Of a DNA stretch of 64,000 bases, positions 2,992 to 21,295 are shown piece by piece. The DNA lies in the IMG/VR virus record IMGVR_UViG_3300018875_000062, positions 1-64,000 of that record. One strand, 5' to 3'. The translations under genes and the position numbers were made by a program. The notes beneath the pieces were generated by a model. That model saw nothing but the letters and a program-made list of their open reading frames with translations, had not been told where the DNA came from and searched no databases. Numbering within the stretch: position 1 is the first letter of the stretch; the number at the start of each line of letters is the position of its first letter. The stretch is from a virus.

Positions 2992-3042
2992 CGTCGGCCA
3001 GGTGGGTCGGCACCCAAGAACAAAGAGGCGGAGATTACGATT

Positions 3043-3957
3043 GTGAAGGCGCTAGTCATTCGCGAGCCCTGGATTGATTTGATCCTGGAAGGCAAGAAAA
3101 CCTGGGAGCTCCGAACAAAGCCCACGTCCATTCGTGGACGCATCGCCCTTATTCGCCAGGGATCAGGTGAGATCGAAGGACTTGCCAACCTCGTGGATGT
3201 GCTTCCATCCCTTCGGCCGGAGGATCTTGCCGACTCCATCCCCTTCCACAGCGTCCCTGCCAGCCGGCATCACGAGGTTGCTGCCAATAACTGGTTGACG
3301 CCGTGGGTGTTGGTCGATGCCAAGCGCTTAGCCGCTCCGGTGCCCTATACTCACCCGTCAGGAGCCGTGACATGGGTCGATCTTGAGGCCTCCACCAGTT
3401 CGGCAGTTGAGCGCGGTCTTTTGAATGCCTCCCAGCCTCGAGCGATGCCTCAGTCATCACCTCTTACATCGCCAGGGGACACCGGGCGGACTTCCTCTCG
3501 TACAACTGTCTCCGATGCGACCAAGCCACCGAGAGCCAATGCGCCCAAGATCTCACCTGCACTTGAGACACAGCTCGTCGTAATCGCTGAGGAGCGCAGC
3601 TTCTCCGTCAAACCACTCGTTAGCTCGCAAACCAAAATGCGGGAATTCTCAATTCGGAAGAGCGGCACCCAACGATTTGTGTTCGTCGATCGAATGCCCG
3701 CGTCAGATCCGCAGTTTCGGGTGTTCATCGAGCCGTCGATTGATAAACTTATAGAGCAAAAGGTTGTGAGGATCCCAGGCGTATCGCGGTTCCACAGTCG
3801 GACGCGCGGGGATCATCTCTTTCGGCACAGCGCCTTCCGCGCCTTTGCTCCCCTGGATCCGGTGGAAGGCGAGCCCGCTGCTCATGGTTGGCTTGTTGAG
3901 TCCAGCCATGCCGATACAGCCTTTGCAGCCTTCCTGACCTGCATCCGGTCAGCCTAG
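3043..3957 (+). CDS. ASCH-domain protein with unassigned C-terminal domain
   Basis: This 304-residue protein starts at GTG behind a GAGGCGGAG ribosome site. Residues 1 to about 110 look like an ASCH (PUA-like) domain: the opening KALVIREPWIDLILEGKKTWE carries the typical pattern of a strand followed by I..GKKTWElR, and RIALIRQGSGEIEGLANL follows. ASCH domains bind RNA or modified nucleotides and often sit beside defence or modification genes. A low-complexity linker (about 110-180) leads to a C-terminal block of about 120 residues that I cannot assign. It lies 51 bp after the SNF2 gene on the same strand and is probably co-transcribed with it. A role in reading a modified base is an inference. 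Confidence 0.7.
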   Translation: MKALVIREPWIDLILEGKKTWELRTKPTSIRGRIALIRQGSGEIEGLANLVDVLPSLRPEDLADSIPFHSVPASRHHEVAANNWLTPWVLVDAKRLAAPVPYTHPSGAVTWVDLEASTSSAVERGLLNASQPRAMPQSSPLTSPGDTGRTSSRTTVSDATKPPRANAPKISPALETQLVVIAEERSFSVKPLVSSQTKMREFSIRKSGTQRFVFVDRMPASDPQFRVFIEPSIDKLIEQKVVRIPGVSRFHSRTRGDHLFRHSAFRAFAPLDPVEGEPAAHGWLVESSHADTAFAAFLTCIRSA

Positions 3958-3967
3958 AGCAGGCTGG

Positions 3968-6067
3968 TCAAAGAAGACCGGCCTCTGCAAGGTAGGGTGA
4001 TGGGGAGGCAACCTGATCGCCAATTCGGCCGCTCATGGTAATCATGAGCCGGCGCTTGGCTCGCGTCATCGCTACGTAAAACAACCGTCGCTCACTCTCT
4101 TTCTGTTCGACCGTCTCGGCCCGCCGCAGCGGCCAAATGCCATCGTTCGCGTCGAGAATGATGACCGTGTCGAATTCCTTTCCCTTGGCACGAAGTGCCG
4201 TCATCAGGTGGACCGGTCGCTTCCACACCTCACCGGCGGCTCCTGAGTCGTCGTCCTCGCCCGGCAGTTTCACGAGAGTCTCGCGGGCGCTATCGAGGTC
4301 GTCCAAGAACTGCTGGAAGTCATCCCCATAACGGCCCGCAAATTCCGCGAGGTACAAGAACGGAGGATCAGTGTAGAAGATATCCTCTTGCGATTTCCCA
4401 TAGTCTTGGTTGAGTCCGGCAAAGTGGTCACCAAGCGCGTAGATGGCATCCTTGACGGAAGGGGCTCCAAGCAGCGCGCGTAAGGAAGAGGCAAACGCGC
4501 TGCTGGCGTTCCCATCGTCATTGGTGCCCTTCAGCGATCCGCGGTAACTCACCAGCGCTTGGATCGCATCCTCATAGGTCTTTGGCCTGCTGGAGCGTAA
4601 GTAACTAGCGAGGGGCTCCCGTTCAGCCTTCTTCAACGGAAAGCGCTTGACCAGATCACAGAGTCTGACGACGTCTTCGACGATAGTCGGCGAGCGAAAT
4701 CCGACACGAGCCATTGCGCAGGTTTGGAGGGCATGGCGCAACTTTTCGAACGCACCGCTCATGAAGACTTGGAGATCCTCGGCGGCACAGAAGGGAAGAT
4801 CCTGGCTGGCCATCAGGACTTGGTATGGGATGAGCTGCGCACGCTTTCGAGAGAGGATAGCGATCTTGGCACCTGGCCTCTCGCTAGACAGAAATCCACG
4901 CACCTCGTTCATGACTGCGTCGATCGACTCGACGAATTTCTCTCGTCGGACGATCTCGACCTGTGCATCAACCTCCTGCATGGGAATGACGCGCTTCGCC
5001 TCGCGTCGCTGGTTATTGACGATGAGACGCTGGGAGGCGGCAACTAAGTTGCGTGGGCAGCGGTAGTTCCGCTCCAATATATAGGTCGTGAACGAGCGCC
5101 CGAAGTGTTGCTCCGGAAACAGGATGTAGTGAGGCGTTGCTCCGCGCCATTCGAAGATCGCCTGATCGTCATCACCGACGATCGTGAGTTCGGCCTTATG
5201 CAGGTCGACGATTTGGCGGATGAGCGCGAGGTCTAGAGGATTGATGTCCTGAAACTCGTCGACAAGGACGTGCGTGAAGCGAGAGCCGCCAGTCGGGTGG
5301 CGGGCATCTGCGATTTGGCGGCGTACGTCCAGAAAGGCGACGTACTTCTGATCCTCCAGGGTAAAGAGCGCCTGTTCGATGAGCGATCGACAGCAGTCGA
5401 CCCAGAAGGGAAACATTGTCTCGACAAACGTCTCGATGCGGCGGTCCTTGAGGATCTCGCACTCGACGAGCTTGTCGATCATTTCGTCGATCTGCCACAG
5501 CAAGCCAAGGCGGATCAGATGATCGACCTGATCGTTTGCGGCCCAGATCGTTTTGGCTTCGTGATCGAACCCAAGCGATTTCAGGCGATCGATGAGATTC
5601 ATCAGGATTTTGTCCACCACATAGGGCTGGGCCTTCATCGCCTTCTCGATAGCCGGGTACTTTCGCCATATGGGTTGGAGCGTATTCTGTGCACAGCGGC
5701 TCCGATCGGCTTCAGTCGCAAGAATTCTCGGGCTGTGGTGGTTGGCCCGTATCCGTCTGAAGCCCCAGCCATTCAGCGTGACGACTTCAACGGCATTCGA
5801 CACTCCTACAAAATCACGACTGGCCAGACGGGCTCGTAGTTCGTCCCTCGCTGCACGAGTGAACGTCACGACCAGAAAGCGTCCCTTTCCGTCTGCTCGA
5901 TTATGAAGTTCAGCGCATCGCCAGAGGAGCGATTGGGTTTTGCCGCTTCCTGCTGGCGCCAAGAGGCGAAGGTTTCCAGCTGGAGCTTTACAGAAACGCA
6001 GTTGGTATTCGTCAAGCTGCTGGTGAGAAACCTCGCTCCCCGCCACATTGTAACCAGTACTGCTCAC
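3968..6067 (-). CDS. UvrD/PcrA-like superfamily 1 helicase
   Basis: This 699-residue protein carries the full set of UvrD-like motifs: Walker A APAGSGKT (K43), VTFTRAARDELRARL (Ia), VDEFQDINPLDL (II, about 268), GDDDQAIFEWRGA (III, about 300), NYRCP (IV), TALRAKGKEFDTVII (V) and LFYVAMTRAKRRLMI (VI, about 665). It is predicted to be an ATP-dependent 3'-5' DNA translocase or helicase. At about 700 residues with no C-terminal nuclease it matches the size of standalone UvrD-type enzymes in defence loci. It starts at GTG, and its 3' end lies 10 bp from the convergent ASCH gene. A TATAAT box lies 21 bp upstream of the start. Confidence 0.85.
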   Translation of the reverse strand: MSSTGYNVAGSEVSHQQLDEYQLRFCKAPAGNLRLLAPAGSGKTQSLLWRCAELHNRADGKGRFLVVTFTRAARDELRARLASRDFVGVSNAVEVVTLNGWGFRRIRANHHSPRILATEADRSRCAQNTLQPIWRKYPAIEKAMKAQPYVVDKILMNLIDRLKSLGFDHEAKTIWAANDQVDHLIRLGLLWQIDEMIDKLVECEILKDRRIETFVETMFPFWVDCCRSLIEQALFTLEDQKYVAFLDVRRQIADARHPTGGSRFTHVLVDEFQDINPLDLALIRQIVDLHKAELTIVGDDDQAIFEWRGATPHYILFPEQHFGRSFTTYILERNYRCPRNLVAASQRLIVNNQRREAKRVIPMQEVDAQVEIVRREKFVESIDAVMNEVRGFLSSERPGAKIAILSRKRAQLIPYQVLMASQDLPFCAAEDLQVFMSGAFEKLRHALQTCAMARVGFRSPTIVEDVVRLCDLVKRFPLKKAEREPLASYLRSSRPKTYEDAIQALVSYRGSLKGTNDDGNASSAFASSLRALLGAPSVKDAIYALGDHFAGLNQDYGKSQEDIFYTDPPFLYLAEFAGRYGDDFQQFLDDLDSARETLVKLPGEDDDSGAAGEVWKRPVHLMTALRAKGKEFDTVIILDANDGIWPLRRAETVEQKESERRLFYVAMTRAKRRLMITMSGRIGDQVASPSPYLAEAGLL

Positions 6068-6244: not shown

Positions 6245-7447
6245 TCACTCTTTGGCGAATCTGACCAACGCCGCCGTTTTGGGGTCATAGATGTACCCCG
6301 TGATCGTACCGTCCTTGATCCGATCGACCGCCTCATCGATCACGAAGAGCGGAACGAGGAACCACTCACGCGGTACCACCGGCTGCCCGAAGCGATCCTT
6401 GATTTCGATGTCGAGCCGCGCTGCGCCGAAGATCCGGTGAATGAGATTCTCAAGCCTGGTGCGGCTGATGTTGTAGAGCTCATAGGTCGCGGCGATCTCC
6501 ACGTCGGCCATGAGGAAGGTCGGGTCGAGCTTGGCGTTCGCCAACCGACGCTCCAAATCGCCTCCCGTCACCCCGATCTTATGAAGAACGTCGCGGTTGG
6601 CTGCGACGACGGGATGGTCGGACTTGCTGCGCAGAACGTAGATCGTGCCGCTCGCTTCGTCACCGTTGCCCGTTTGGTCGGCGAAAAGCGGCCCCGCAGT
6701 CGGGTCTGTGATGCGCCTTCCAGACTCGTCCTTGTAGAGAGCTCTTTGCAATGAACGTAAAAGCAGGTTGCTTTCGGTTCCGTTCGAGTAGATCACTCGA
6801 AGCCGGGCGTCGAACTCGCCATTCGGCGCTTTGAACGTCTCACCAACCTCAGCCACGTAAGCCATCTGACCGCCCAGGATGAAGAGGTTCCCCTGGACGA
6901 TATCCGCCTTGAGGAAGCCTGCGTCCTTGACGAACGGGCGGGTGGCTCGGATACCGGTATCCAGCTCCTTCTGGACCTGCTTGAACAAGGGCTCGAATCG
7001 CTCGAAGTCTTCGCACCTCTGACGATTGGCAACTTCCTCCGCTGCACGCTTTTCGACGCTCGGACGAACATGCTTCAGCTCAGTGATATTCGAGCCGCCC
7101 GCGATATCACTAAGCTCGGCGAGAAGCTCATCCTCGTCCATGGTTTCGGCGCTGGCGGTTGATGCCGCCTCAGCGCCGACAAGCAAACCCTGATGGTCGA
7201 GGGGCTTCAAAAGCGTTCGGCACTCCTCCAGCTCCCGCATGCGGTCAAGGCGCACGGCGTAGAGCCTTTCGAAAATGTCCCCATCTTCGCTGTGCGAGGG
7301 CAGGCGGCCGTGCTGCTCGACAAAGCGCTGCACCTCCTCGAACCCAGCGATGATGCGCTCCTCCCGGGGAGAGCGCCCGCCCTTCTTCGCCGGCTGGGCG
7401 AAATCGTCCAGTTCGGCGCGAAGGTCATCGAGATCGAAATCACTCAT
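6245..7447 (-). CDS. GIY-YIG nuclease (T5orf172/MUG113 type)
   Basis: This 400-residue protein begins at ATG 7447, which sits in an ATGAGTGA overlap with the stop codon of the helicase gene, so translation is probably coupled. The C-terminal third (about 267-390) has a GIY-YIG nuclease pattern of the T5orf172 kind: GTIYVLRSKS, then HKIGVTGGDLERRLANA, then RLENLIHRIFGAARL and REWFLVP, which supply the usual strand, arginine and glutamate positions. The N-terminal 250 residues are charged and helical and match nothing I know. As the last gene of the methyltransferase-helicase operon it is the most likely DNA-cleaving component. The methyltransferase has no nuclease motif that I can see. Confidence 0.8.
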   Translation of the reverse strand: MSDFDLDDLRAELDDFAQPAKKGGRSPREERIIAGFEEVQRFVEQHGRLPSHSEDGDIFERLYAVRLDRMRELEECRTLLKPLDHQGLLVGAEAASTASAETMDEDELLAELSDIAGGSNITELKHVRPSVEKRAAEEVANRQRCEDFERFEPLFKQVQKELDTGIRATRPFVKDAGFLKADIVQGNLFILGGQMAYVAEVGETFKAPNGEFDARLRVIYSNGTESNLLLRSLQRALYKDESGRRITDPTAGPLFADQTGNGDEASGTIYVLRSKSDHPVVAANRDVLHKIGVTGGDLERRLANAKLDPTFLMADVEIAATYELYNISRTRLENLIHRIFGAARLDIEIKDRFGQPVVPREWFLVPLFVIDEAVDRIKDGTITGYIYDPKTAALVRFAKE

Positions 7448-9494
7448 AACGGCCCTCATCCTTGAACCGCACGAAGGCAGCAGCACCCTCGGCCATGCGC
7501 TTCTCCCAGGCATCGGTCGAGGTGATGGACGGCAGCCGCCCCCGCTCCTTCTTGAAACGGACCGCACGCATCGCCAGCTCCTTCGCCTCCTCCGGAGAAA
7601 GGCTCGTCCGCTTGCCGGCGATGATCGCCGCAACCTGCTTGAGGCTGTCCTCGCTCATCGTCTTGGCAAGAATGGCATAAGCCTCGCCGAAGGGATTGAT
7701 CCGGTCGATCAGGTCGATATCGAGTTCGCGCACGCTCAGGGCGAACTGGCGGACGCCATCGATGAGGGCCGTGTTCCCGCCCGTCTCGGGGTCGGTCCTA
7801 CCCAACGCGGTTTCCTTGGCCTTCTGGGTCAGATTGAGGGCGGCGATGGCATGCTGCCTGACTGCCTCTTGGTCCTCGCTGTCCAGTTCGGGGTACTTGT
7901 CCTTGATGATCTTTCCTAACCGCAGCTGAGTCAGCTCCTCGGGCACGAGCTCCGGGTCGAACAGGCCGCGCTCGATGGCGCTCTTTTCCTGCACGAAGGC
8001 GGCGATCACCTCGTTGAGGTCCTCACGGCAGATGCGCGCGGCTTCCGGGCTTTTGGGTTCGGCAAGGCCCTTGATCTCGATCTGGAACTGGCCGCTTGCC
8101 TCGTTGAAGCCGACATTGCACTTGTCCGGGTCATAGCCACCCTCACCATAGTCGAAGCCAGGGGTGGGCCCGCTGTTCGGCTGCTTGGGCTTGAACTCGA
8201 AGCGCGGTGCCAGAACCTGCTCCATGAGAAGGCTCGCCGCGATGGCCTTGAGGGTGTCGTTCACCGCCTCCGTGACGGCCTGTTCGGATGCATCCGGCTC
8301 CGCGATCAAGTTGGTGAAGCGGGCGCGGGTCTTGCCCGGCGCGTCGCGGGTGGCGCGACCGATGATCTGCACGATCTCAGTCAGGCTTGAGCGATAGCCA
8401 ACCGTCAATGCATGCTCGCACCAGATCCAGTCGAAGCCCTCCTTGGCCATGCCAAGCGCGATGATGATGTCGACATGGTCCCGGTTGTTCTTCTGCGCCG
8501 GGTCTTTCAGCGCGGCGGAGACCCGCTCGCGCTTGGCGGGCTCGTCATCGACCAGATCGGCGATCCTGAGCACACGGCCCTCCGGCGTCTTCACCAGCTG
8601 GAAGCCGGTCGCTGGGTCAGTACCCTGCCACTCGCCTAGCGCCTCGATGATGTGCTCGACCTCCCGGATCTTGTCTTTCGTGCTCTCGCGGGAATTGACG
8701 TTAGGGATATGGACGATCGTCTTCTCGGCCGGGTCCAAAACCTTAAGGATGTCGTCGGCGTAGGAGCCGGAGTAGAAGAAATAGCCGATATCGAGCTGCT
8801 TCAGGTGCTCGTAGCCGTTCAGCTGCTCGTAATAGGTGTAGGTGACGGTGTCGAACTTCGCCTCGTCCTGCGGGGCTAGAACCGCCTCGGCATCGCCCCG
8901 GAAGTAGGATCCCGTCATCGCCACGATATGCACGCGGTCGCGGGCGATGAACTGGCCGAGGTGCGTCCCGAGCTTGTTGTCCGGGTTGGCCGAGACATGG
9001 TGGAACTCGTCCACGGCGATCAGCCGGTCGTCGAAAGCCTCGATCCCGAATTTGTCGACCGCGAAGCGGAAGGTGGCGTGGGTGCAGACCAGCACCTTGT
9101 CCTGGCTTTCGAGGAATGCGCCGACCGCATTGACCTTGCCGCCGTTGTCGCCGCCGGGGGCATCGCAGAGGTTCCATTTCGGGGCGACTTTCCAGTCCGC
9201 CCAGAATCCGAACCTGGTCAGCGGCTCGTCGTGGAAGCTGGAGCCGATGGATTTTTCCGGAACCACGATGATCGCCTGCTTGAGCCCCTGGTTGTGGAGC
9301 TTGTCAAGGGCGATGAACATGAGCGCGCGGCTCTTGCCTGAAGCAGGAGGCGACTTGATCAGAAGATACTGCTCTCCGCGCTTCTCATAGGCGCGCTCCT
9401 GCATCGGCCGCATGCCGAGCTCGTTCGCCTTGGCCGAGCGGCCGTTGTGAGCATAAGCGACCGAGACGGAGGGGGCTTTCTTATGATCGGTCAT
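7440..9494 (-). CDS. DEAD/DEAH-box (Res-type) helicase
   Basis: This 684-residue superfamily 2 ATPase has Walker A SPPASGKSRA (K54), Walker B VDEFHHVS (about 160), motif III MTGSYFRGDAE, and a motif VI region IIGRATRDAPGKTRA (about 380). This style resembles the ATPase subunits of type III and other multi-gene restriction systems. The C-terminal 280 residues are a partner-specific extension that I cannot assign. The start ATG overlaps the stop of the 70-residue gene (ATGA), and the stop overlaps the GIY-YIG start, so all sit on one message. It is predicted to translocate or unwind DNA for the nuclease downstream. Confidence 0.85.
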   Translation of the reverse strand: MTDHKKAPSVSVAYAHNGRSAKANELGMRPMQERAYEKRGEQYLLIKSPPASGKSRALMFIALDKLHNQGLKQAIIVVPEKSIGSSFHDEPLTRFGFWADWKVAPKWNLCDAPGGDNGGKVNAVGAFLESQDKVLVCTHATFRFAVDKFGIEAFDDRLIAVDEFHHVSANPDNKLGTHLGQFIARDRVHIVAMTGSYFRGDAEAVLAPQDEAKFDTVTYTYYEQLNGYEHLKQLDIGYFFYSGSYADDILKVLDPAEKTIVHIPNVNSRESTKDKIREVEHIIEALGEWQGTDPATGFQLVKTPEGRVLRIADLVDDEPAKRERVSAALKDPAQKNNRDHVDIIIALGMAKEGFDWIWCEHALTVGYRSSLTEIVQIIGRATRDAPGKTRARFTNLIAEPDASEQAVTEAVNDTLKAIAASLLMEQVLAPRFEFKPKQPNSGPTPGFDYGEGGYDPDKCNVGFNEASGQFQIEIKGLAEPKSPEAARICREDLNEVIAAFVQEKSAIERGLFDPELVPEELTQLRLGKIIKDKYPELDSEDQEAVRQHAIAALNLTQKAKETALGRTDPETGGNTALIDGVRQFALSVRELDIDLIDRINPFGEAYAILAKTMSEDSLKQVAAIIAGKRTSLSPEEAKELAMRAVRFKKERGRLPSITSTDAWEKRMAEGAAAFVRFKDEGRYE

Positions 9495-9703
9495 GCGCGG
9501 CGCTCCTCGGCAAAGTGTTTCTCGAAGGCCTTCACGCTGCCATAGGTCTCGGCTACGCGGGTCTGGACTTTGCGCATCATGTCGGATCCGCGTTCGGGCC
9601 AGCCATGGTGTTCGAACATGGCAGCGAAGCCGCCGAATTTACCCTGAGCGATCTCGGCGATGATCTTTGCATCACCCCCAGGCTTGTATGTGTTTGCTTT
9701 CAC
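9491..9703 (-). CDS. Small unknown protein coupled to methyltransferase and helicase genes
   Basis: This is a 70-residue protein starting at GTG. GTGA overlaps the methyltransferase stop and its own stop overlaps the helicase ATG, so it is translationally coupled on both sides. It is basic, with KIIAEIAQGKFGGFAAMFEHH in its first half and a helical VQTRVAETYGSVKAFEKHF segment at the end. No known domain is recognised. The tight coupling argues that it is a real structural or regulatory subunit of the system and not a chance ORF. Confidence 0.7.
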   Translation of the reverse strand: MKANTYKPGGDAKIIAEIAQGKFGGFAAMFEHHGWPERGSDMMRKVQTRVAETYGSVKAFEKHFAEERRA

Positions 9704-12480
9704 GCGTTTGCCCCCACCTTGCGCTTTCCGGCAGCTCCCTGTCCTGCCCTCATCTTCGTGTAGAGTTCGAATAGCTTCTCCAGCCGCTCCGTATCGTTGC
9801 GGAACCGGCGGCCGATATAGATGCGCTCCAGTACTTCATCGTTGCGCTCATGCGCCTCCCGAAGATCAGCGGGCATGTTGCTGGGATTGTAAAGTTCGGC
9901 GATCGTTGCAGGGAAATGCGCCTCGCGCGCCAAGAGGATGTCCTCAGCGGAGCGAGTCAGATCGGCCTTGTTCTTCTCGGTGAGCGAAGGAACGGGGAAT
10001 GTGTTCCAGCAAAGTGTATTCGTAAACCGATAGTCCGTTCTCATTCGCGCGCAGACAGCAGCGACCCAAGAGTGCATCATACGAGATACGACGATGCCCA
10101 ACACCCATAGTTCGGAGCACGGCATGCCGAATGCTAGGTTTGAAATAGCGGTTCCGGCCTGTAGCAATCCTGCAGGCAGGTAATCGCGATTTTCGGAGCT
10201 AGTAACAGGCACACAGATTAGTGGCACCTTGGGTAGTGGTTTACGCTCGTCGAACCGATACGCCCAGGCGGCTGCTTTCACCGTGGCCGCTTTAGAGCTT
10301 TCTAGCCGAAATTCTTTAACCCGCGCCACTCGGCTAGAGATGCTCGGGACTGCGAGGGCGTCATCGACACTTTGATCCTCTATCCAAAGGCAGTATCTGT
10401 TCGTCCCCCTTATCAACTCTATCGAGCCGACGAACGGACGAATGAATCTTCGGATCTGATCCTCTGTTAGGCCCAATTGCCCTACTTCGCTGCCTTCCAG
10501 CAGAAGGTGGCCGCCATCCGTGGGAGAGTTTCCACGATCAAATTCAGGAAGTCCCGAAATCTGGCTCCGCCGTGGTTCAACAATCGTGTTAGTGCCAGGG
10601 ATCAAATACGCGTTGATTGCAGGCACCTCACGAACGACGCTTAATCCATTGTCATCAATTTCAAATAGCTTCTTGCTTCCATGAAACGCGGCGGCAAAGC
10701 CAACGATCACAACCGTGACACCGGCATTGTGACTCGCGAGGTTCTTCCAGTTAAAGGAAGTATGAGCAAATATTATCTCATACCCGGCTTGAAACAGCAT
10801 CGGCCACAGAATCGCGGCTTGCTGCCCTTGACAGATTGAATTTGTCGCAACGAATGCTGTAGCTGACTTAGTGTGCCGCCCGTAAATAGCTGCTTTCATA
10901 AACCAGCCCGCCACATAGTCTAACGACTTCCAGTTCGCGGTGCTCTGGCTAAATATTGCCTCCAAGTCGGATTTTTGTTCTTGGGTCTGACGTTTACTGC
11001 CTAGGTAGGGCGGATTCCCACAGATGTAGGTCTCGCCACCTTCATTGTCGAAATCGATCTGCGCCTGTTCTAGCGGCGTGCTAAACAGATCATCAGCCTG
11101 GAATTTAACTCCCTTCCCCGTCGGCGGGCAGATGCTCAGCCAGTCGAGGCGCAGGGCGTTACCACAGGTAATCCAGTTCTGAGCATCCAGAGGCAGAAAC
11201 TCGGCTAAAGCCTCCTTCTGACCTCGATAGAGCACATCGCACTGATACTCTGCAATGATGAGGGCCAGGCGCGCGATCTCGGCCGGGAAATCGCGCAGCT
11301 CGATGCCCCTAAAGTTGGTGAGCGGGATTTCTGTGCGCCGGTCTGGCTCGCCGCGTCGCTTGTTGATCTCGGCCTCGATAGCCCGCATCTCCTTGTAGGC
11401 GATAACCAAGAAGTTGCCCGAGCCGCAGGCCGGGTCGAAGACTCTGATCTTCGCCATGCGATTGCGCAGGTTCAGGAGCTTGCGCGGGTTGTCCCCCGCC
11501 TCTTCCAGCTTCTCGCGCAGGTCGTCGAGGAAGAGCGGGTTCAGCACCTTCAGGATGTTCGGCACGCTGGTGTAGTGCATGCCGAGCGCGCCGCGCTCAT
11601 CATCGTCGGCGACCGCCTGGATCATCGAGCCGAAGATGTCCGGGTTGATCTTCCTCCAATCGAGGTTGCCGATGTGCAGCAGGTAGGAACGGGCGATTCG
11701 GCTGAAGCGCGGCACATCCGTACTGCCGGAGAACAAGCCGCCGTTCACATAGGGAAACGCATCGGCCCACCGGGGCATGCTGGCCGCCGCCCGGTCGGCG
11801 ATCTTCATGTTCATGGCGCGGAAGATCGTGCTGATCACCTCATGAGTGTTCGACGAGTCCTTCGCGCTCATTTGCTCGATGGTCGCCGTGAACAGGCGGT
11901 TGCCGACGAAGATGTCGGTATCCTCGGCGAAGAAGCAGAAGATCAGCCGCGCCATGAAGTGGTTCATGTCGGGGCGGCGCTGTGCGGTTCCCCAGTCGGG
12001 GTTGTCCTTCAGCAGTTCGACATAGAGGCGGTTCAGGCGGCCTGTCGCCTTGATGTCGAAGGAGCTTTCCCGGATCTGCCTGACGGTCGTGATCCCGGCC
12101 AGGGGCAGGAAGAAGCCGAAATGGTCCGGAAAGTCCCGATAGGCGCAGGCCACCGTCTCGCCGCTTGTCAGGTCCTCGGCCTCGAAATCCTCGCCATCGG
12201 TCGCCAGGACGAACCGTGCCTTCGCCCTGGCCGTGGCCGGGCTCGCCTTCAGGGCGGCCAGGGTCTTCGTCACCTCCCCGGAGGGGCAGACGGCGATATG
12301 AATGTTGTTCGTCTGGAGGACGCCGCCCAGGTCGGACTTGTTGGATGCGCCGGTGCGCAGCCGCTTGATCGTCGTTTCCTTGTTCCCGAACGCCTGGAGA
12401 AAGGCGAACGGAAATTCAGCGGGGTCGAATGGCTGCTCGGAAAGATCCGAGATGGCTTCTTCGATCTCAACGGCGTTCAT
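9700..12480 (-). CDS. MmeI-like N6-adenine DNA methyltransferase
   Basis: The protein has 926 residues when started at ATG 12480, which follows AAGGGGCTCC; an in-frame start 48 bp further upstream lacks a ribosome site. SAM-binding motif I is FDPACGSGNFLV (about residue 348) and catalytic motif IV is GNPPYLGS (about 487), both of the gamma-class adenine type. The N-terminal 170 residues resemble the MmeI-type N-terminus, but I see no PD-(D/E)xK nuclease motif, so the protein probably only methylates. Residues from about 560 to 800 should hold the target-recognition domain. The DNA for that part is noticeably AT-richer than both ends, as if swapped in. It is the second gene of a five-gene leftward set, 202 bp after the DUF262 gene. 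Confidence 0.85.
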   Translation of the reverse strand: MNAVEIEEAISDLSEQPFDPAEFPFAFLQAFGNKETTIKRLRTGASNKSDLGGVLQTNNIHIAVCPSGEVTKTLAALKASPATARAKARFVLATDGEDFEAEDLTSGETVACAYRDFPDHFGFFLPLAGITTVRQIRESSFDIKATGRLNRLYVELLKDNPDWGTAQRRPDMNHFMARLIFCFFAEDTDIFVGNRLFTATIEQMSAKDSSNTHEVISTIFRAMNMKIADRAAASMPRWADAFPYVNGGLFSGSTDVPRFSRIARSYLLHIGNLDWRKINPDIFGSMIQAVADDDERGALGMHYTSVPNILKVLNPLFLDDLREKLEEAGDNPRKLLNLRNRMAKIRVFDPACGSGNFLVIAYKEMRAIEAEINKRRGEPDRRTEIPLTNFRGIELRDFPAEIARLALIIAEYQCDVLYRGQKEALAEFLPLDAQNWITCGNALRLDWLSICPPTGKGVKFQADDLFSTPLEQAQIDFDNEGGETYICGNPPYLGSKRQTQEQKSDLEAIFSQSTANWKSLDYVAGWFMKAAIYGRHTKSATAFVATNSICQGQQAAILWPMLFQAGYEIIFAHTSFNWKNLASHNAGVTVVIVGFAAAFHGSKKLFEIDDNGLSVVREVPAINAYLIPGTNTIVEPRRSQISGLPEFDRGNSPTDGGHLLLEGSEVGQLGLTEDQIRRFIRPFVGSIELIRGTNRYCLWIEDQSVDDALAVPSISSRVARVKEFRLESSKAATVKAAAWAYRFDERKPLPKVPLICVPVTSSENRDYLPAGLLQAGTAISNLAFGMPCSELWVLGIVVSRMMHSWVAAVCARMRTDYRFTNTLCWNTFPVPSLTEKNKADLTRSAEDILLAREAHFPATIAELYNPSNMPADLREAHERNDEVLERIYIGRRFRNDTERLEKLFELYTKMRAGQGAAGKRKVGANA

Positions 12481-12682
12481 GGAGCCCCTTCCCCAATCCG
12501 TTCCGGATGTTTCTTGCGCCTCCCGCACAGCCGCTCAGGGAGCCGCCGGCTACCCGATGTGCCGCTGGGCGATGCCTGTTCTGTCTCCCGAAGGATGGGC
12601 CCCCGTCAAGAGTGCGACAACCTGTCCATGGCTGGGTAGGCTGGGCCCCGGCTCGCTGCCCCAGCCTCTGGTGGAAACGCCC

Positions 12683-14926
12683 TTACCCGAACCGCGACTT
12701 CACGTAATCCGTCACGGAGTTGCCGGACAGTTCCATGGTTGCATTGGCGCCACGGACAAAGAACCGGTGAACGGATCCGTCCTTGACGAAGGCAGGTTTG
12801 GGGCCCTTCTCGCAGCGCACCACCATAACCCGCTCTCCATCCTCATCCTCGAAGTGAGGATGGACATAGGGCAGGAAGATCTCGCCGACGCGGTCCTTGA
12901 GCAGGTTCACCAGATGCAGGCCCATCTTGTCCTCGTTGGGGAAGCCGTCCGCCGAGAGCCCGAGAACCTTCCCGTCATCCGCCACGCCGATCACCAGCGT
13001 TCCGCCACGTGCATTCAGGAAACCTGTGATGGTCTTGAGCGCGGCCAGATGCATCTTCTCGTCCGGCTGGCCCGTGTGCAGGTTCGTGCGCAAGGTCGAC
13101 TTGAACTCGATGCTCTCGCCCTCCCCCGCGGCAAGGAGATCGGCGACGGAAACGGCGGACGGCGCGGGCGCAGGCGTCTGCCCGCAGAGCTGCCGGTAGG
13201 CCTCCCGCACCAGATGCGCCATGCGCACCCGACGCTCCTTCAAGAACTCCTCATAGGGCAGCTCCCACCAGAGGGGCGGCAGGGCGTGCCATTTGTACAT
13301 GGTCTCCCGCTCCTGGGGCGAAAGGGCAGCGTCCAATGCCGGCGCGTAGTCCATGGGAGCCTTGTCGCTGATCTTCAGGTTGTCAGGCCATTCGACAACC
13401 GCGAAGTTCGCGATCTGGTTGACCTGCCGGTGCTCGGTGATGCCGAGCTTGGACAGGTAGGCGCGTGGAAAGAGATGGTGCTGCTCGAAGGTGGCCTTCG
13501 AGCCGTTGATCGCAGGGTTGACCATGTCCGCGATCTTGAGCGGGCTGTAGAGAGCGCGGGCACCTAGAAGGATCAGCGAAGCCTGATAGGCGAAGCGCGA
13601 GGGGCTTTGGGCCGCGGAGGTCGCAAGGCTCGAAGGCAGCGAGATATCCCAATAGTCCTTCGTCAGAGCCGTCGCGCACATCTGACGCAGTTTCGCCAGA
13701 TACTCATCGCCGCTCTTCAGGTCGCGCAGCTGCGCGATGTCGAACTCGAATGCGGTTTCGGGCGAGCTCGTGTAACGCCGTGTGAGCGAGGTCATGAAGA
13801 AGAATTCGGCGATGGCCTGCCGCATGATCTGCTTGTCGATGCCGTGATCGACAATGCCGATCAAGTAGAGGACATATGAATAAATAATCGCCGTTTCCGA
13901 CGTGATCATGCCCTCGTGGCGGTAGCCCGCCAGTGCCAGCGCGCTCAAGTAGTGGTGCCAATTCGCCAGGTTGACGACGCGGCTTTGCGCCAGCTTCAGG
14001 AGCTCGAACTGCGCATCCCGCTTCTGAGGATCGACCTCGCCCGTCACCGCGTCGCGACCTCTGAGCACGCTGTAGACGTTTTCAAGGCGTGCACGCTTCA
14101 GTCCCAGGCCAACACCCACTCGCAGAAGCTGATCCGGAGACGGCTTGATGAAATGGTTGAAGGGCGAGGGACCGCCCGCACTGGGTCGCGTCGCTTCGCC
14201 CGCGAACCGCTCCAGCTCCGCCCGTCCCTCGTCCCAGAAGACGGACATGAGGGTCATGATGAAGTCGGCTTGGTTGAGCTTCTTGCCCTCGCCGTTGATG
14301 CGCACGAACACGTCGGCGACGGCCTCGGCGTCAAGGGTCGAGCTCAAGGTCAAAGCCGTGAAGGTATATTGCGGAAGGTTATGCAGCTTGCCTATGGCCG
14401 CCTGCGCGCGGCTGATCTCCTCGGGCGTCAGATCCCGAACCTGCTTTAGACCCTCGAGATAGCGCATGGCTACATCGAAGACCGTCACGCCCGGCTGCCA
14501 CAACTCGGAAATGTCGGGGATATAGGCCTTGTCCTTGACGATGGACGCATCGGTCACATCGAAGCGGGCCTGCAGAGGATTGAAGGCTATCCGGATGCGC
14601 TCCTTCTTGAAGTTCGACCGCACCACCTCCTTGCCTTTAAGCACGGCATAGAGCGAGGTCAGCCGCTGCTGGCCATCGACGATCGCCAGCGATGGGGCAC
14701 GCTGGTGCTCCTTGGTGCCGATGGTCTTGTTGCCGGCGTCCGCTCCCGTTTCCCAGAACAGCAGGTAGCCAACAGGATAACCACGATAGAGCGAGTCGAA
14801 GAGGTTGCGGACATTGACGTTAGGCCAGACGAAGGGCCGCTGGATCTCCGGAAGCCCGATTTTGCCTAAGTCGATATCCTCGACGAGCGAGACAAGCGGA
14901 AATGCCGTCGTTGTAAACAGTGCCAC
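12683..14926 (-). CDS. GmrSD-like DUF262/HNH protein with C-terminal AlbA_2 domain
   Basis: This 747-residue protein starts at GTG behind GGGGGGTGAATC. Residues 1 to about 250 are a DUF262 (ParB/Srx-like) domain with the hallmark VDGQQRLTSLYAVLKG near residue 83. A GmrD-type HNH-like motif, EQHHLFPRAYL, lies near residue 470. The C-terminus (about 595-747) is an AlbA_2/Schlafen-type domain: GEGESIEFKSTLR, then TITGFLNARGGTLVIGVADDG. GmrSD enzymes restrict phage DNA with modified cytosines, and the DUF262 part hydrolyses NTP. The AlbA_2 fusion is less usual. It heads the operon of the MmeI-like methyltransferase, so it may be part of that system or an independent type IV enzyme. Confidence 0.8.
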   Translation of the reverse strand: MALFTTTAFPLVSLVEDIDLGKIGLPEIQRPFVWPNVNVRNLFDSLYRGYPVGYLLFWETGADAGNKTIGTKEHQRAPSLAIVDGQQRLTSLYAVLKGKEVVRSNFKKERIRIAFNPLQARFDVTDASIVKDKAYIPDISELWQPGVTVFDVAMRYLEGLKQVRDLTPEEISRAQAAIGKLHNLPQYTFTALTLSSTLDAEAVADVFVRINGEGKKLNQADFIMTLMSVFWDEGRAELERFAGEATRPSAGGPSPFNHFIKPSPDQLLRVGVGLGLKRARLENVYSVLRGRDAVTGEVDPQKRDAQFELLKLAQSRVVNLANWHHYLSALALAGYRHEGMITSETAIIYSYVLYLIGIVDHGIDKQIMRQAIAEFFFMTSLTRRYTSSPETAFEFDIAQLRDLKSGDEYLAKLRQMCATALTKDYWDISLPSSLATSAAQSPSRFAYQASLILLGARALYSPLKIADMVNPAINGSKATFEQHHLFPRAYLSKLGITEHRQVNQIANFAVVEWPDNLKISDKAPMDYAPALDAALSPQERETMYKWHALPPLWWELPYEEFLKERRVRMAHLVREAYRQLCGQTPAPAPSAVSVADLLAAGEGESIEFKSTLRTNLHTGQPDEKMHLAALKTITGFLNARGGTLVIGVADDGKVLGLSADGFPNEDKMGLHLVNLLKDRVGEIFLPYVHPHFEDEDGERVMVVRCEKGPKPAFVKDGSVHRFFVRGANATMELSGNSVTDYVKSRFG

Positions 14927-15196: not shown

Positions 15197-15661
15197 TTAT
15201 TTGGCGCTACATTGTATGGCGCTGCCGCCTTTCTCTTCTGACAGAGAGGCGCGAAGGAATTCTTGGAGCTTAATCGCAAGGGCATCGACATCCTTGGTCT
15301 CGCACTCCCAGACAACTAGTACGGACCAACCCTTGGCCTTTAGGGCATTCACGGCCTCCTCGTCTCGCTCGATGTTCCGTTTGAATTTAGCATGCCAATA
15401 CGCCGCTCGGGTCTTCGGTGTGGTTGTCCGGGAGCAGCCGTCATGACGGTGCCAGAAGCAGCCATGCACGAAGACCGCCTTTCGCAGGCGCGGGAAGATC
15501 AGATCCGGCGAGCCCGGCAGATCACGGCGATGCAAACGGAACCGATAGCCGAGGCGGTGAACCAAACTCCTGACAACGAGTTCGGGTTTCGTGTTCTTCC
15601 CACGGACACGCGACATAAGTGCCGAACGTTCAGCACTGGGAGGGGGATCGCGCTCTTTCAT
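15197..15661 (-). CDS. vsr: Very-short-patch mismatch endonuclease Vsr
   Basis: This 154-residue protein is of normal Vsr length. It shows the family motifs SRVRGKNTKPELVVRSL, the catalytic region LPGSPDLIFPRLRKAVFVHG (D53) and zinc or active-site residues in GCFWHRHDGC, ending in WSVLVVWECE. Vsr nicks T:G mismatches that arise by deamination of 5-methylcytosine, so it guards the host against the mutagenic cost of the adjacent C5 methyltransferase. It lies 69 bp after that gene on the same strand. The start could also be the internal ATG of MSRVRGKN. Confidence 0.9.
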   Translation of the reverse strand: MKERDPPPSAERSALMSRVRGKNTKPELVVRSLVHRLGYRFRLHRRDLPGSPDLIFPRLRKAVFVHGCFWHRHDGCSRTTTPKTRAAYWHAKFKRNIERDEEAVNALKAKGWSVLVVWECETKDVDALAIKLQEFLRASLSEEKGGSAIQCSAK

Positions 15662-15730
15662 ACCGATTTTCAGACATAGTAGTTGGCCATGCAGGATGGT
15701 AGAACCTCAAGCAGAGTTAGAGCGGTAGGG

Positions 15731-16876
15731 TCAGAACTTTAAGCGAGTCTCCGCAGCCTCAAGAGCTTCAAGGAAACCGGCTGGATACCGCAACGAAGAT
15801 CCCCGAGCGCGTTTAATAAAGCCGGATAACGCTCTCAGCGATAGTTGATCCCACCCTGTATCTTCAAAATCTAAGAGAGACGGAGCAGGAGTTGCGAGCG
15901 GTCTTTCGGAAACATTGCGGCTCCAGCGCTTTCCGCGCTCCCCGAAACATGCGCTTGGCCAAGGTTCCCCTGCAGCCAGCTCCCTTGTCGAGCCCAAGGC
16001 AGATCCTGGAGATTTGATTCGTTCACCCAGCCACGTCGCTACTGGAGCTGAAACGGCGTTTCCAACCAATCGCCAGCGCATACGTGGCAAGCCCGCGTCT
16101 GCAGCAGGCTTAGTCCAATTAACCGGGAAGCCCTGCAACAGCTCTGCCGTTTCGATGGTCGGGCGTAAAACTCTACCATCTGGAAAAAGGACCGCTGGAG
16201 GGGAGGCAATTCCGATTGCGGATCCAGACTTCAGAGGAGGAATAGCATCCCTTGTCAGGCCATTGCCTGATGAACCCTCTGTCCAATAGAAACCGATTGG
16301 AGCATCAAGGGATGGCGAGAGCTCTTCCGTAGATCCAGCATCATCAGCAAAAAGCACATCGCACGGATTTCCTTCCAACATGGCCAGGAAGAAGATCCTA
16401 CGCCTACGCTGCGGAACCCCAAAGGCCCGGGAGTCCACTATACGATATGCCCAACGATACCCAAGCTTCTCAAGCTTAGTGACCAATTGTTGCATAGCTG
16501 CGCCTCGATCCAGATGCAGCATAAAGTAAACATTCTCAATCAGTACCTTAGGGACCGTAGAATTCGCTAGCAGTGTGAATAAGTGCTCGACGGCAGACGA
16601 TTTCTTGCCCGTCAAACCTGCCTTTGTTCCGGCCATAGATAAGTCCTGACAAGGAAACCCTGCAGTGACAAGATCTACATTGGGGAGTGAAACTAGCTCG
16701 CTAACGTCTCCAACGACCTTCGTTTCAGGGAAGTGGGCTCGTAGAACCGCCTGAGCAGCTGGATCATTGTCGGCAGCTAAAACAGCATGAAACCCTGCCT
16801 GCGCTAGGCCATGCTCTAGGCCTCCAGCTCCAGCAAAGAGGGCCGCTGTGTTCAGACATAAGTCAGAATGAGTCAT
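15731..16876 (-). CDS. DNA (cytosine-5) methyltransferase
   Basis: This 381-residue protein has the ordered C5-methyltransferase motifs: I (AALFAGAGGLEHGLAQAGF), IV with the catalytic Cys76 in AGFPCQDLSMAG, VI (VLIENVYFML), VIII (RRRRIFFLAM) and X (RLVGNAVSAPVATWLGERI). The recognition region between VIII and X is short to moderate. It should make 5-methylcytosine in a site that cannot be predicted from sequence. It is followed by vsr and preceded, 15 bp away, by the unknown 231-residue gene, so it belongs to the five-gene operon headed by the ATPase/kinase protein. Confidence 0.92.
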   Translation of the reverse strand: MTHSDLCLNTAALFAGAGGLEHGLAQAGFHAVLAADNDPAAQAVLRAHFPETKVVGDVSELVSLPNVDLVTAGFPCQDLSMAGTKAGLTGKKSSAVEHLFTLLANSTVPKVLIENVYFMLHLDRGAAMQQLVTKLEKLGYRWAYRIVDSRAFGVPQRRRRIFFLAMLEGNPCDVLFADDAGSTEELSPSLDAPIGFYWTEGSSGNGLTRDAIPPLKSGSAIGIASPPAVLFPDGRVLRPTIETAELLQGFPVNWTKPAADAGLPRMRWRLVGNAVSAPVATWLGERIKSPGSALGSTRELAAGEPWPSACFGERGKRWSRNVSERPLATPAPSLLDFEDTGWDQLSLRALSGFIKRARGSSLRYPAGFLEALEAAETRLKF

Positions 16877-16891
16877 AAGGAATACAAATCA

Positions 16892-17587
16892 TTAGCTCGG
16901 CAAAGCAGAGAGCTTAGAGGTATAGTTCTGCAGCATATTGACACGTGTCGTCGCTTTATCTCCGTCCCAAAGTTGTTTGAGCTCGCTGATGTACGCCAAA
17001 ATTCTACTCTCCTGAGCATTCCTCACCCGGGCGATATGCGTCCGGTTGTTCCCTGCCAACTGTACCGTTTGCCACTCTACTGGGTGTAATTCGGACAGGA
17101 TCAAATCAAGACAGTCCGTTGGGAGGCATACATTTGACAACAACCTCGGTATTGGAAGATCGCACAAATTTTCTGATACTTGGAAATGAATCTGAGGGCC
17201 CCATTGATCAGAATTCTTGTAATCGAAATGAAACGGCAACTCGTATCCATTCTTCTTAAGCCTTAGATGCGTGGATATACGATCTATCTCCCACATTGGA
17301 ACTTTAGGCTTGGTACCCTCCTCCCGGAGAAACACACAATCGAAGGTGACCGACAGCTCTGTTTTAAGGTGCTTCCTGTTTGGCCCATCATAGTATTCTG
17401 AAGAGCGTATAATAATTTCTCTGTCCGTCGACCAGTGAAGTCGCGGAGTTCTCTCATCCACTTTGATTTGAAGATCCCGAAGCACATGAGTGAGTCGAAG
17501 AGTTGATGATTTATCAACGAAGTCTTCAGCAAGTTCGATAAAGGCCGCCATCTCGACGGTATATTTTTCAAGGTCAATTTTAGTCAT
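16892..17587 (-). CDS. Unknown protein in the kinase-methyltransferase operon
   Basis: This 231-residue protein has no domain I recognise. Its start overlaps the stop of the receiver gene (ATGA), and it ends 15 bp before the cytosine methyltransferase, so it is firmly in the operon. It is mixed alpha/beta in appearance, with charged and aromatic segments (TPRLHWSTDREIIIRSSEYY; NGYELPFHFDYKNSDQWGPQ), and has no signal or membrane segment. I see no clear PD-(D/E)xK or HNH motif. By position it could be the missing restriction nuclease or an adaptor, but nothing in the sequence decides this. Confidence 0.65.
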   Translation of the reverse strand: MTKIDLEKYTVEMAAFIELAEDFVDKSSTLRLTHVLRDLQIKVDERTPRLHWSTDREIIIRSSEYYDGPNRKHLKTELSVTFDCVFLREEGTKPKVPMWEIDRISTHLRLKKNGYELPFHFDYKNSDQWGPQIHFQVSENLCDLPIPRLLSNVCLPTDCLDLILSELHPVEWQTVQLAGNNRTHIARVRNAQESRILAYISELKQLWDGDKATTRVNMLQNYTSKLSALPS

Positions 17588-18723
17588 TGTTCACCGAGGA
17601 TTTCAGCTTGATCCTCGAGGCGGACTTTACGTGCGAGAGCCTTATCATTTTTCACAGCAGTGATAAGAACCCACGCTTCAGGGGCCTCTGGCGGGAAATG
17701 CTCGTCTGCAGCTCGAACACATTCCGCTGCATCGGCGATATTATCGGTCTCGACAAGGTCTGCATCTGATGTGACGACAGGGTCAGAGAACTTAAGCATT
17801 CTCAAACTTACAGGCACAACCAGCTCTTTTAGCGCAGCTTCACGCTCAGGTTTAGAACGCGGCAACTTAAGCCCAATCGAATCGATCCCTGCGCTCCACC
17901 ACCTAGGACCTGCGAATTCTGCTAATGCACCCGAATAAGCTACCTTAGTAAGTTCTTCCGCCAGCCTTGTTTTTTCAAGAAGAGCCTCTCTTAAGCATGC
18001 AAGCTCTATTCCAAGCCGAGCTGAGACATGCCGATCATTTATGAGAAAGCTCGGGTAGGGAATGATTTGACGGATCAGCCATCCAATCACTTCTCTTGCA
18101 GCTCGCTCATTAGAGTCGGCAACCCATTGAGGTGGCCGATGATGATTTACATCGCGAACGGCGCTTGTGGCCCAGCTAGCATCATTAGGAACTTTTAGAG
18201 CAGTTTCCGCAAATACCCTAGCATAGTTTTCCCACTCAACATCACGGAGGTGCCCTGCAAGATTCATCAATGTCTTATACCCATCCGCAAGGGCAATCGC
18301 TTCAGGCAGCACGGCAGGGTCAGTTTTCTGTGCTAGCCACTCTACACCAAGTTGCTCAGCGAGTACGTGGCGACGATTAGCATTTACAGCCTGTCCCAAG
18401 GCCGTCTCAAGATGATTGCTGACAACCATGGCAGGAGGCCGAGCATTCCCAATAACTAGTCGAAATTGCTGGAAAACACTTAGTCCGTTTGCAGCAACTC
18501 CACCTGACGAAAGATCAGGAGCAACCCTCTGTGCATCATCATTAAAAAAGTCAAAGATCCATAGGTTCGCATGTTGTGCGCCAGCCTTTGCTTGCTCCTG
18601 TTTGTCCTTGATGTCTGCTGGTGTGAAATCACAGAAGCGATCGCGGAGTCCGAGCTCTTCGGCCGGACCAAGAAGATCATCCGGTTCATCATCAACGAAA
18701 AAAATATCGGGACTGCTCGACAT
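17584..18723 (-). CDS. Receiver-domain protein with unknown C-terminal domain
   Basis: Residues 1 to about 145 of this 379-residue protein read as a response-regulator receiver. The acidic pair is D11/D12 in IFFVDDEPDD, the phospho-acceptor candidate is D58 in LWIFDFFNDD, the switch serine is S102 in PPAMVVSNHLE and the lysine is K133 in GVEWLAQKTD. All key receiver residues are thus in place. The remaining 230 residues have no DNA-binding helix-turn-helix or known output domain that I can see. The gene begins 3 bp after the ATPase/kinase stop and overlaps the next gene, which pairs it with the kinase. It is probably the partner that the kinase phosphorylates. Confidence 0.7.
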   Translation of the reverse strand: MSSSPDIFFVDDEPDDLLGPAEELGLRDRFCDFTPADIKDKQEQAKAGAQHANLWIFDFFNDDAQRVAPDLSSGGVAANGLSVFQQFRLVIGNARPPAMVVSNHLETALGQAVNANRRHVLAEQLGVEWLAQKTDPAVLPEAIALADGYKTLMNLAGHLRDVEWENYARVFAETALKVPNDASWATSAVRDVNHHRPPQWVADSNERAAREVIGWLIRQIIPYPSFLINDRHVSARLGIELACLREALLEKTRLAEELTKVAYSGALAEFAGPRWWSAGIDSIGLKLPRSKPEREAALKELVVPVSLRMLKFSDPVVTSDADLVETDNIADAAECVRAADEHFPPEAPEAWVLITAVKNDKALARKVRLEDQAEILGEQ

Positions 18724-18726
18724 GAC

Positions 18727-21033: not shown

Positions 21034-21295
21034 TTTTCTTATATTAAGGATTCTGGAGAAAATAGGGAGTGGCCAGCATAGGAGGCCCATACAGTTGTGG
21101 CATGGGCGCTCCTACCTAATAATCCTTGCTCACCGCGCTTACGAGGCAGCATTGCGTTAACCTCGAAATCCCTCAATTGAGCCTCATAAGACGTGGACAG
21201 TTGCACCTCGGGAGCACCCAGGGTACGCCCGTGTGCTAACATAGCAGCCATAACAACTACTCCGCGAGTAGGAAATCTGACATAGGTTAACGACG
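21034..21295. promoter_or_regulatory. Divergent promoter region between kinase operon and adenine methyltransferase
   Basis: This 262-bp gap separates the leftward ATPase/kinase gene from the rightward methyltransferase and must carry both promoters. I see no exact consensus box. The leftward start is preceded by an AT-rich CCTTAATATAAGAAAA segment. A 70-codon leftward reading frame (21251-21039) lies inside it but has no ribosome site and no recognisable features, so I do not call it. Confidence 0.4.

Follow-up and report, generated by a model that had tools for sequence, protein, structure and literature searches.

A probable DnmA-YeeB-YeeC-type restriction operon with an exchangeable gene slot between its methyltransferase and helicase genes

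Introduction

Do five adjoining genes of restriction type form a single defence system, and is that system new? The question is raised by positions 6245 to 14926 of the window analysed here, a stretch of 64,000 nucleotides (positions 1 to 64,000) of the IMG/VR virus record IMGVR_UViG_3300018875_000062. All five genes lie on the minus strand and encode, in order of transcription, a DUF262-AlbA_2 protein, an MmeI-like methyltransferase (MTase), a protein of 70 amino acids (aa), a helicase and a GIY-YIG protein. A sequence-only reading had described them as an uncatalogued set with the DUF262-AlbA_2 gene in the lead, and had compared the other four to a restriction system in which recognition and methylation, ATP-driven translocation, and GIY-YIG cleavage are divided between proteins. 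We consider it probable, from the comparison of sequences, that the MTase, helicase and GIY-YIG genes form a split restriction-modification (RM) operon of the DnmA-YeeB-YeeC type with an exchangeable slot, that the 70-aa gene is an occupant of this slot, and that the DUF262 gene is independent. The core of the operon is already known; what is new is the fixed cargo slot and, in relatives, a set of BrnA-helicase fusions that makes a guard model testable.

The core operon

The DnmA-YeeB-YeeC cluster has been described as an MmeI-like methylase without a nuclease motif, a superfamily 2 (SF2) helicase and a T5orf172/GIY-YIG protein, and has been proposed to be a type I-like RM system (PMC7261158, PMC9973331). 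In B. subtilis, DnmA (YeeA) is the N6-methyladenine MTase for GACGAG and is clustered with YeeB and YeeC (PMC7261158, PMC9973331). By its protein families, the MTase-helicase-GIY-YIG core of the window is this published cluster. We base the assignment on the family descriptions, on the annotation YeeB carried by a plasmid homologue of the helicase (69% identical), and on the like arrangement of the loci found in Bacilli. The window shares with the B. subtilis and V. crassostreae clusters the three families and their order, with a nuclease-free MTase followed by the helicase and the T5orf172/GIY-YIG gene, and differs from them in having a filled slot between MTase and helicase and an adjoining DUF262-AlbA_2 gene. 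The three core genes of the supposedly uncatalogued set were thus found, on checking the literature, to be catalogued already.

The MTase (9700-12480; 926 aa) is a predicted N6-adenine enzyme with its own target-recognition domain. It carries five MmeI Pfam domains over its whole length (MTase domain 7e-119, target-recognition domain 4e-71), matches the MmeI structure 5hr4 at 8e-144 and contains both DPACGSGNFL and NPPY. Its start is the ATG at 12480, behind GGGGAAGGGG; a longer open reading frame (ORF) with a GTG start begins at 12528. In contrast to MmeI, a type IIL enzyme, it lacks the PD-ExK nuclease motif and would need a separate helicase and nuclease. These are supplied as candidates by the downstream genes. 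The YeeB-like SF2 helicase of the DEAD/ResIII type (7440-9494; 684 aa; Pfam DEAD 9e-7) is followed by the YeeC-like GIY-YIG/T5orf172 protein (6245-7447; 400 aa; Pfam MUG113 2.9e-13, T5orf172 1.7e-11), which consists of an N-terminal helical region, a middle beta domain and a C-terminal nuclease domain. The start of the latter is the ATG at 7447, and a 462-aa ORF with a TTG start over-extends. The 70-aa gene overlaps the MTase gene by 4 bp (GTGA) and the helicase gene by 4 bp (ATGA), and the helicase and GIY-YIG genes overlap by 8 bp. All five genes, their domains, their strand and these overlaps, as originally described, were present in the sequence and in the Pfam results.

The set matches none of BREX, DISARM, classical type I or type III, in agreement with the sequence-only reading. 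We excluded a type IIL/IIG (MmeI) system because nuclease and MTase are not in one chain, and a classical type I system because there is no HsdR or HsdS and target recognition resides in the MTase. BREX was rejected because a scan of ten genes around the operon gave no PglZ or BrxC domain, and DISARM for lack of DrmA, DrmB (DUF1998) and DrmC in Pfam and PADLOC scans; the MTase matches the DrmMI model weakly (1.3e-26) compared with the type IIG model (1e-283).

Conservation of the core

Relatives of the helicase were drawn from viral contigs, plasmids and GTDB genomes, the last including even samples of three classes, and removal of near-duplicates left 143 non-redundant helicase loci. With the seed genome excluded in each case, the core helicase occurs in 16/384 genomes of Alphaproteobacteria (seed Rhodovulum), in 11/368 of Gammaproteobacteria as defined by GTDB (seed Cupriavidus) and in 7/398 of Bacilli (seed Tumebacillus). 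An MTase gene lies upstream of the helicase in all 134 loci with enough contig, and a GIY-YIG gene lies downstream in 140/143; two of the three exceptions are at the end of a contig and the third (L023) has a broken helicase. Since every other locus with enough contig has the identical order, the adjacency of the three genes is not due to chance.

The catalytic motifs are likewise kept across the family, which, together with the missing MmeI nuclease motif, bears out the split restriction reading. Walker A and DEFHH are present in 139/139 helicase relatives, the GIY motif in 137/137 relatives and NPPY in 115 of 120 MTases. No VEAK-type nuclease motif was found in the N-termini of the same number of MTases (0/120), and a loose D-ExK pattern occurs in three of them. 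In a 32-sequence alignment of the GIY-YIG protein, residues G267, Y270, K290, G292, R301 and E333 are invariant. A repeat in a C-terminal segment of the helicase is related to one in the N-terminus of the GIY-YIG protein (hhalign probability 93%), which hints that the two proteins have a docking or DNA-contact module in common.

A profile of the whole GIY-YIG protein found no match in the PDB, and its AlphaFold2 (AF2) model is modest (pTM 0.37). As a weak lead, the sole Foldseek match of the middle domain (residues ~185-245) is to domain I of EF-P/eIF5A (5wxk; 49 residues, root-mean-square deviation 1.8, E 0.02). Four Bacilli loci (L058, L072, L077 and L098) encode YeeB-type helicases 82-84% identical to that of the window, all with empty slots, in what appears from sequence to be recent transfer between phyla. 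In an A. rubi plasmid, a HigA-type antitoxin gene (L034:4934-5227) stands upstream of the operon and overlaps the MTase start by 4 bp, with no toxin annotated adjoining.

An accessory slot after the MTase gene

The junction between MTase and helicase genes has the features of a dedicated accessory slot with often exchanged occupants, and is the new part of the locus. Among the 134 loci, the gap between the two genes is at most 25 bp in 63, and in the other 71 it ranges from 90 to 4264 bp; three of these longer gaps are of about 100 bp and without an ORF. The slot is thus filled in 71/134 loci, as against an insert at the helicase-GIY-YIG junction in 3/140 (Fisher p 4e-24), and in the class-sampled genomes alone 17/33 slots are filled. 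The end of the MTase gene is RTGA in 53 filled and 48 empty loci of the 134 compared, and the next gene, be it cargo or helicase, usually starts within the MTase stop codon. Slots are empty in almost all of the distant or Gram-positive relatives seen.

The cargo is diverse. RhuM (10 loci) and YhcG/DUF1016 PDDEXK nucleases (9) are commonest, followed by unknown families C2 (7), C3 (7), C4 (6) and C10 (3), AlbA_2-ATPases (5), BrnT (5), PLD-like proteins (3) and CoiA-like proteins (2). T5orf172-related cargo is found in three loci, to which the 70-aa domain of the window can be added, while PDDEXK_4, a Zeta-type kinase, AAA_15, RelB/YafQ and a Gp49/antidote pair occur in one locus each. In the slots of L099 (9005-9979), L169 (7208-8191) and L092 (8823-10001), a second T5orf172-related protein is encoded in addition to that of the core GIY-YIG gene. 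On the helicase tree, slot occupancy requires 29 changes, with at least 20 gains or losses forced by the starred branches, and most cargo families turn up at several unconnected places; the change counts are approximate, since the tree was made quickly and its distant members have long branches.

Accessory genes embedded in type I RM operons are already known (PrrC, TgvAB, RloF). Near relatives of the YhcG and RhuM cargo lie inside type I RM operons of Aeromonas media and Roseicitreum with similar short overlaps, so that the cargo pool is common to both kinds of RM operon. Two type I RM operons (L219:4445-12522 and L220:3491-11020) contain embedded PDDEXK (YhcG), RhuM, Shedu and DUF3800 genes, again with short overlaps. 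The DnmA-type operons resemble such operons (with PrrC, TgvAB, RloF, RhuM or PDDEXK genes, for example) in their short-overlap accessories and their YhcG and RhuM cargo, but their core has no HsdR, HsdM or HsdS and there is one preferred slot, after the MTase gene. We found no description of this slot in the open-access literature, which is not proof of absence.

The 70-residue slot protein

In the window, the slot contains a gene with a GTG start (9491-9703) for a 70-aa protein, which we assign by comparison with the relatives to the slot and place outside the core. The AF2 model of the protein has four helices (pLDDT 76). It aligns to residues 1-62 of the 392-aa T5orf172 slot protein of the Rhodovulum locus L092 (2e-19), and standalone homologues of 68 to ~104 aa occur in the phage contigs L115, L190, L191 and L193; with that of L115 it shares 16 consecutive identical residues (WPERGSDMMRKVQTRV). 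There was no match in Pfam, PADLOC or PHROGs and none in plasmids, and Foldseek comparison of the model with the PDB gave nothing below E 1.

The protein is a small helical domain of phage type and would most likely be translated with the complex as a partner or sensor subunit. Alternatively, the ORF could be what decay has left, without function, of a longer slot gene (that of the L092 T5orf172 protein, for example), which would agree with the match to only the first 62 of 392 residues. We regard this as unlikely in view of the frame, which is intact and overlaps each flanking gene by exactly 4 bp, the standalone homologues in phage contigs and the identity with the L115 protein.

BrnT loci and a possible guard function

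Five loci have a BrnT toxin gene as their cargo, and in these the helicase ORF downstream carries an N-terminal extension of ~45 residues (ISKKRLAELAALP..IDTSDIPE.DEAFF). BrnT and extended helicase together span L071:4582-7033, L081:9601-12043, L082:9577-12052 and L087:9113-11597; in L159, on the reverse strand, BrnT is at 4681-4965 and the helicase at 2529-4727. BrnT lies directly upstream of the extended helicase in all five (5/5), and the 143 helicases include no other extension of this kind and the slots no other BrnT. Further helicase extensions, such as those of L059, L068 and L179, were set aside as not of BrnA type; given a Met close to the usual start, they look like over-called starts.

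A profile of the extension, made from real sequences and searched among 22,860 ORFs, matches BrnA-type ORFs beside standalone BrnT genes (L208 from Endozoicomonas, 1.1e-11; L207, annotated BrnA, 1.4e-6; L004, 2.5e-12); one other query was a consensus of the extension, 40 aa long and derived from two loci. The extension also has a match in L218, where there is no helicase and no clear gene. Toxin and antitoxin genes overlap by 14-38 bp in annotated standalone pairs and by ~26-29 bp in the fusions (counted from a conserved Met). No start codon separates the extension from the helicase core in L071 and L159. The Pfam model of the C-terminal part of BrnA found no match in the four fused helicases scanned, where helicase is present instead. 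The fusions need four changes on the helicase tree. These loci resemble BrnT-BrnA toxin-antitoxin pairs, which occur here among the relatives only, in the toxin gene, the N-terminal part of the antitoxin and the kind of overlap, and differ from them in that a YeeB-like helicase, fused to the antitoxin part, stands where BrnA has its own C-terminal part.

The extension is, by its sequence matches, a BrnA-like N-terminus that may bind the toxin, suggesting that the fused helicase acts as an antitoxin, in which case the restriction complex would guard the toxin. We put forward tentatively, as a possibility on which we would not rely, that the slot as a whole has a guard function. The restriction complex would silence the proteins encoded there (toxins, nucleases, ATPases and small partners like the 70-aa protein), and its inactivation by a phage would release them. 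The YeeB helicase of the BrnT loci would be the antitoxin by way of its BrnA-like N-terminus, so that a motor lost or inhibited would mean free toxin and an aborted infection. For the window itself, the guard idea would hold only by analogy with these loci.

Proposed function of the operon and its alternatives

For the operon of the window, we propose that the MmeI-like protein would recognise an asymmetric site and methylate a single adenine. Foreign DNA lacking this methylation would lead it to recruit the YeeB motor, or to license it, and cutting would fall to the YeeC GIY-YIG protein, as in type I systems. Several points weigh against this reading of the locus. The tie to the B. subtilis cluster is made through descriptions, annotation and arrangement rather than protein alignment. 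For the 70-aa protein, few homologues and no matching fold were found, and its gene could be what trimming has left of a longer one in the slot. Lastly, in B. subtilis neither plasmid transformation nor three phages were seen to be restricted, and the authors termed the cluster an "RM relic" (PMC7261158, PMC9973331).

That term describes an alternative, proposed for B. subtilis, in which the MTase alone is of importance, acting as an orphan epigenetic regulator, and the helicase and GIY-YIG protein are non-functional passengers. The B. subtilis deletions, which gave no plasmid or phage phenotype, favour it, as does the DnmA motif, which phages do not avoid (PMC7261158, PMC9973331). Extended to the family, it would have to accommodate helicase and GIY motifs that are essentially invariant across phyla and three genes that travel jointly on plasmids and chromosomes, which is unexpected of relics. 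In V. crassostreae, moreover, deleting dnmA or yeeB alters phage sensitivity (PMC7261158, PMC9973331). We consider the relic explanation quite improbable. The unavoided motif would also suit a BREX-like action, in which the complex blocks phage DNA replication without cutting and the GIY domain serves for binding only, and the MTase weakly matches PglX models (1.5e-6); with no PglZ or BrxC in the operon and with the catalytic Arg and Glu of the GIY domain invariant, such a mechanism is highly unlikely. The split RM operon is our preferred reading.

The neighbouring DUF262-AlbA_2 gene and the genomic context

The gene that was thought to lead the set (12683-14926; 747 aa) is not coupled to the operon, ending 202 bp (12481-12682) before the MTase ATG; a promoter scan of this gap gave no sigma-70-like site, the scan being uninformative. 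Its product has a DUF262 (GmrSD_N)-(HNH-like)-AlbA_2 architecture (Pfam GmrSD_N 3e-29, SLFN_AlbA_2 3e-15), with a DGQQR motif and an HNH-like EQHHLFP motif in the translation and no DUF1524 match by Pfam. It matches PADLOC HEC-05 (1.8e-33) and the DUF262 protein 7p9k in the PDB (4e-9). The gene is probably an independent neighbour of type IV-like restriction function. It resembles the BrxU/GmrSD (HEC-05) type IV enzymes in its DUF262 domain with DGQQR, and differs in an added C-terminal AlbA_2 domain and in lying outside the operon.

Among the 114 core loci screened for relatives of this protein, a full-length relative (51% identical) lies directly behind the GIY-YIG gene in L105, a distant one (24%) lies nearby in L052, and no close relative other than that of L105 stands beside the core. 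The view that the five genes are a new system is not borne out. It is very improbable that all five genes are one system with the DUF262-AlbA_2 protein as an obligate sensor or effector: the gene adjoins the MTase on the same strand, and a 51% relative is found behind the core of L105 though the protein is rare (0/385 alphaproteobacterial genomes at 1e-60, a search with no positive control), but there is a gap in place of an overlap, the position in L105 is another one, other loci screened have no close relative, the viral relatives (L199 and L200) are without core genes, DUF262 genes are generic in defence, and BrxU acts independently of its BREX neighbour.

The source record is a 69.7-kb IMG/VR contig containing a prophage, with portal, terminase, protease and tail genes at ~31-51 kb. 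An integrase-like ORF, named from its sequence, lies at record positions 68422-69729 (L205), and a shorter integrase-like pair at 23020-24482; a search for att repeats of the prophage gave only 13-15-bp matches, which are not convincing. The operon lies beside the prophage, within a defence island at 1-22.8 kb that is probably host rather than phage DNA. As the island is outside the integrase-flanked prophage, the IMG/VR record seems to include host DNA. Elsewhere in the island, genes on one strand at 15197-21090 encode a Vsr nicking enzyme, a C5 MTase, unknown ORFs of 231 and 379 aa with a 4-bp overlap, and a 787-aa protein with two GHKL (HATPase) domains; this looks like a further restriction-type defence cluster. 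The remainder (1-6067 and 21296-22810) includes a SNF2 helicase, an ASCH-domain protein, a GajB-like UvrD helicase and an Eco57I-type MTase fragment.

Implications

DnmA-YeeB-YeeC-type systems are present in ~2-4% of the sampled species of Alphaproteobacteria, Gammaproteobacteria and Bacilli, and the one model studied in depth, that of B. subtilis, may be inactive. Operons with a conserved core and a fast-changing slot offer better models than B. subtilis and a place to seek new defence genes. The BrnT loci with BrnA-helicase fusions, finally, allow the idea that a restriction machine can be the antitoxin that guards itself to be tested directly by genetics.

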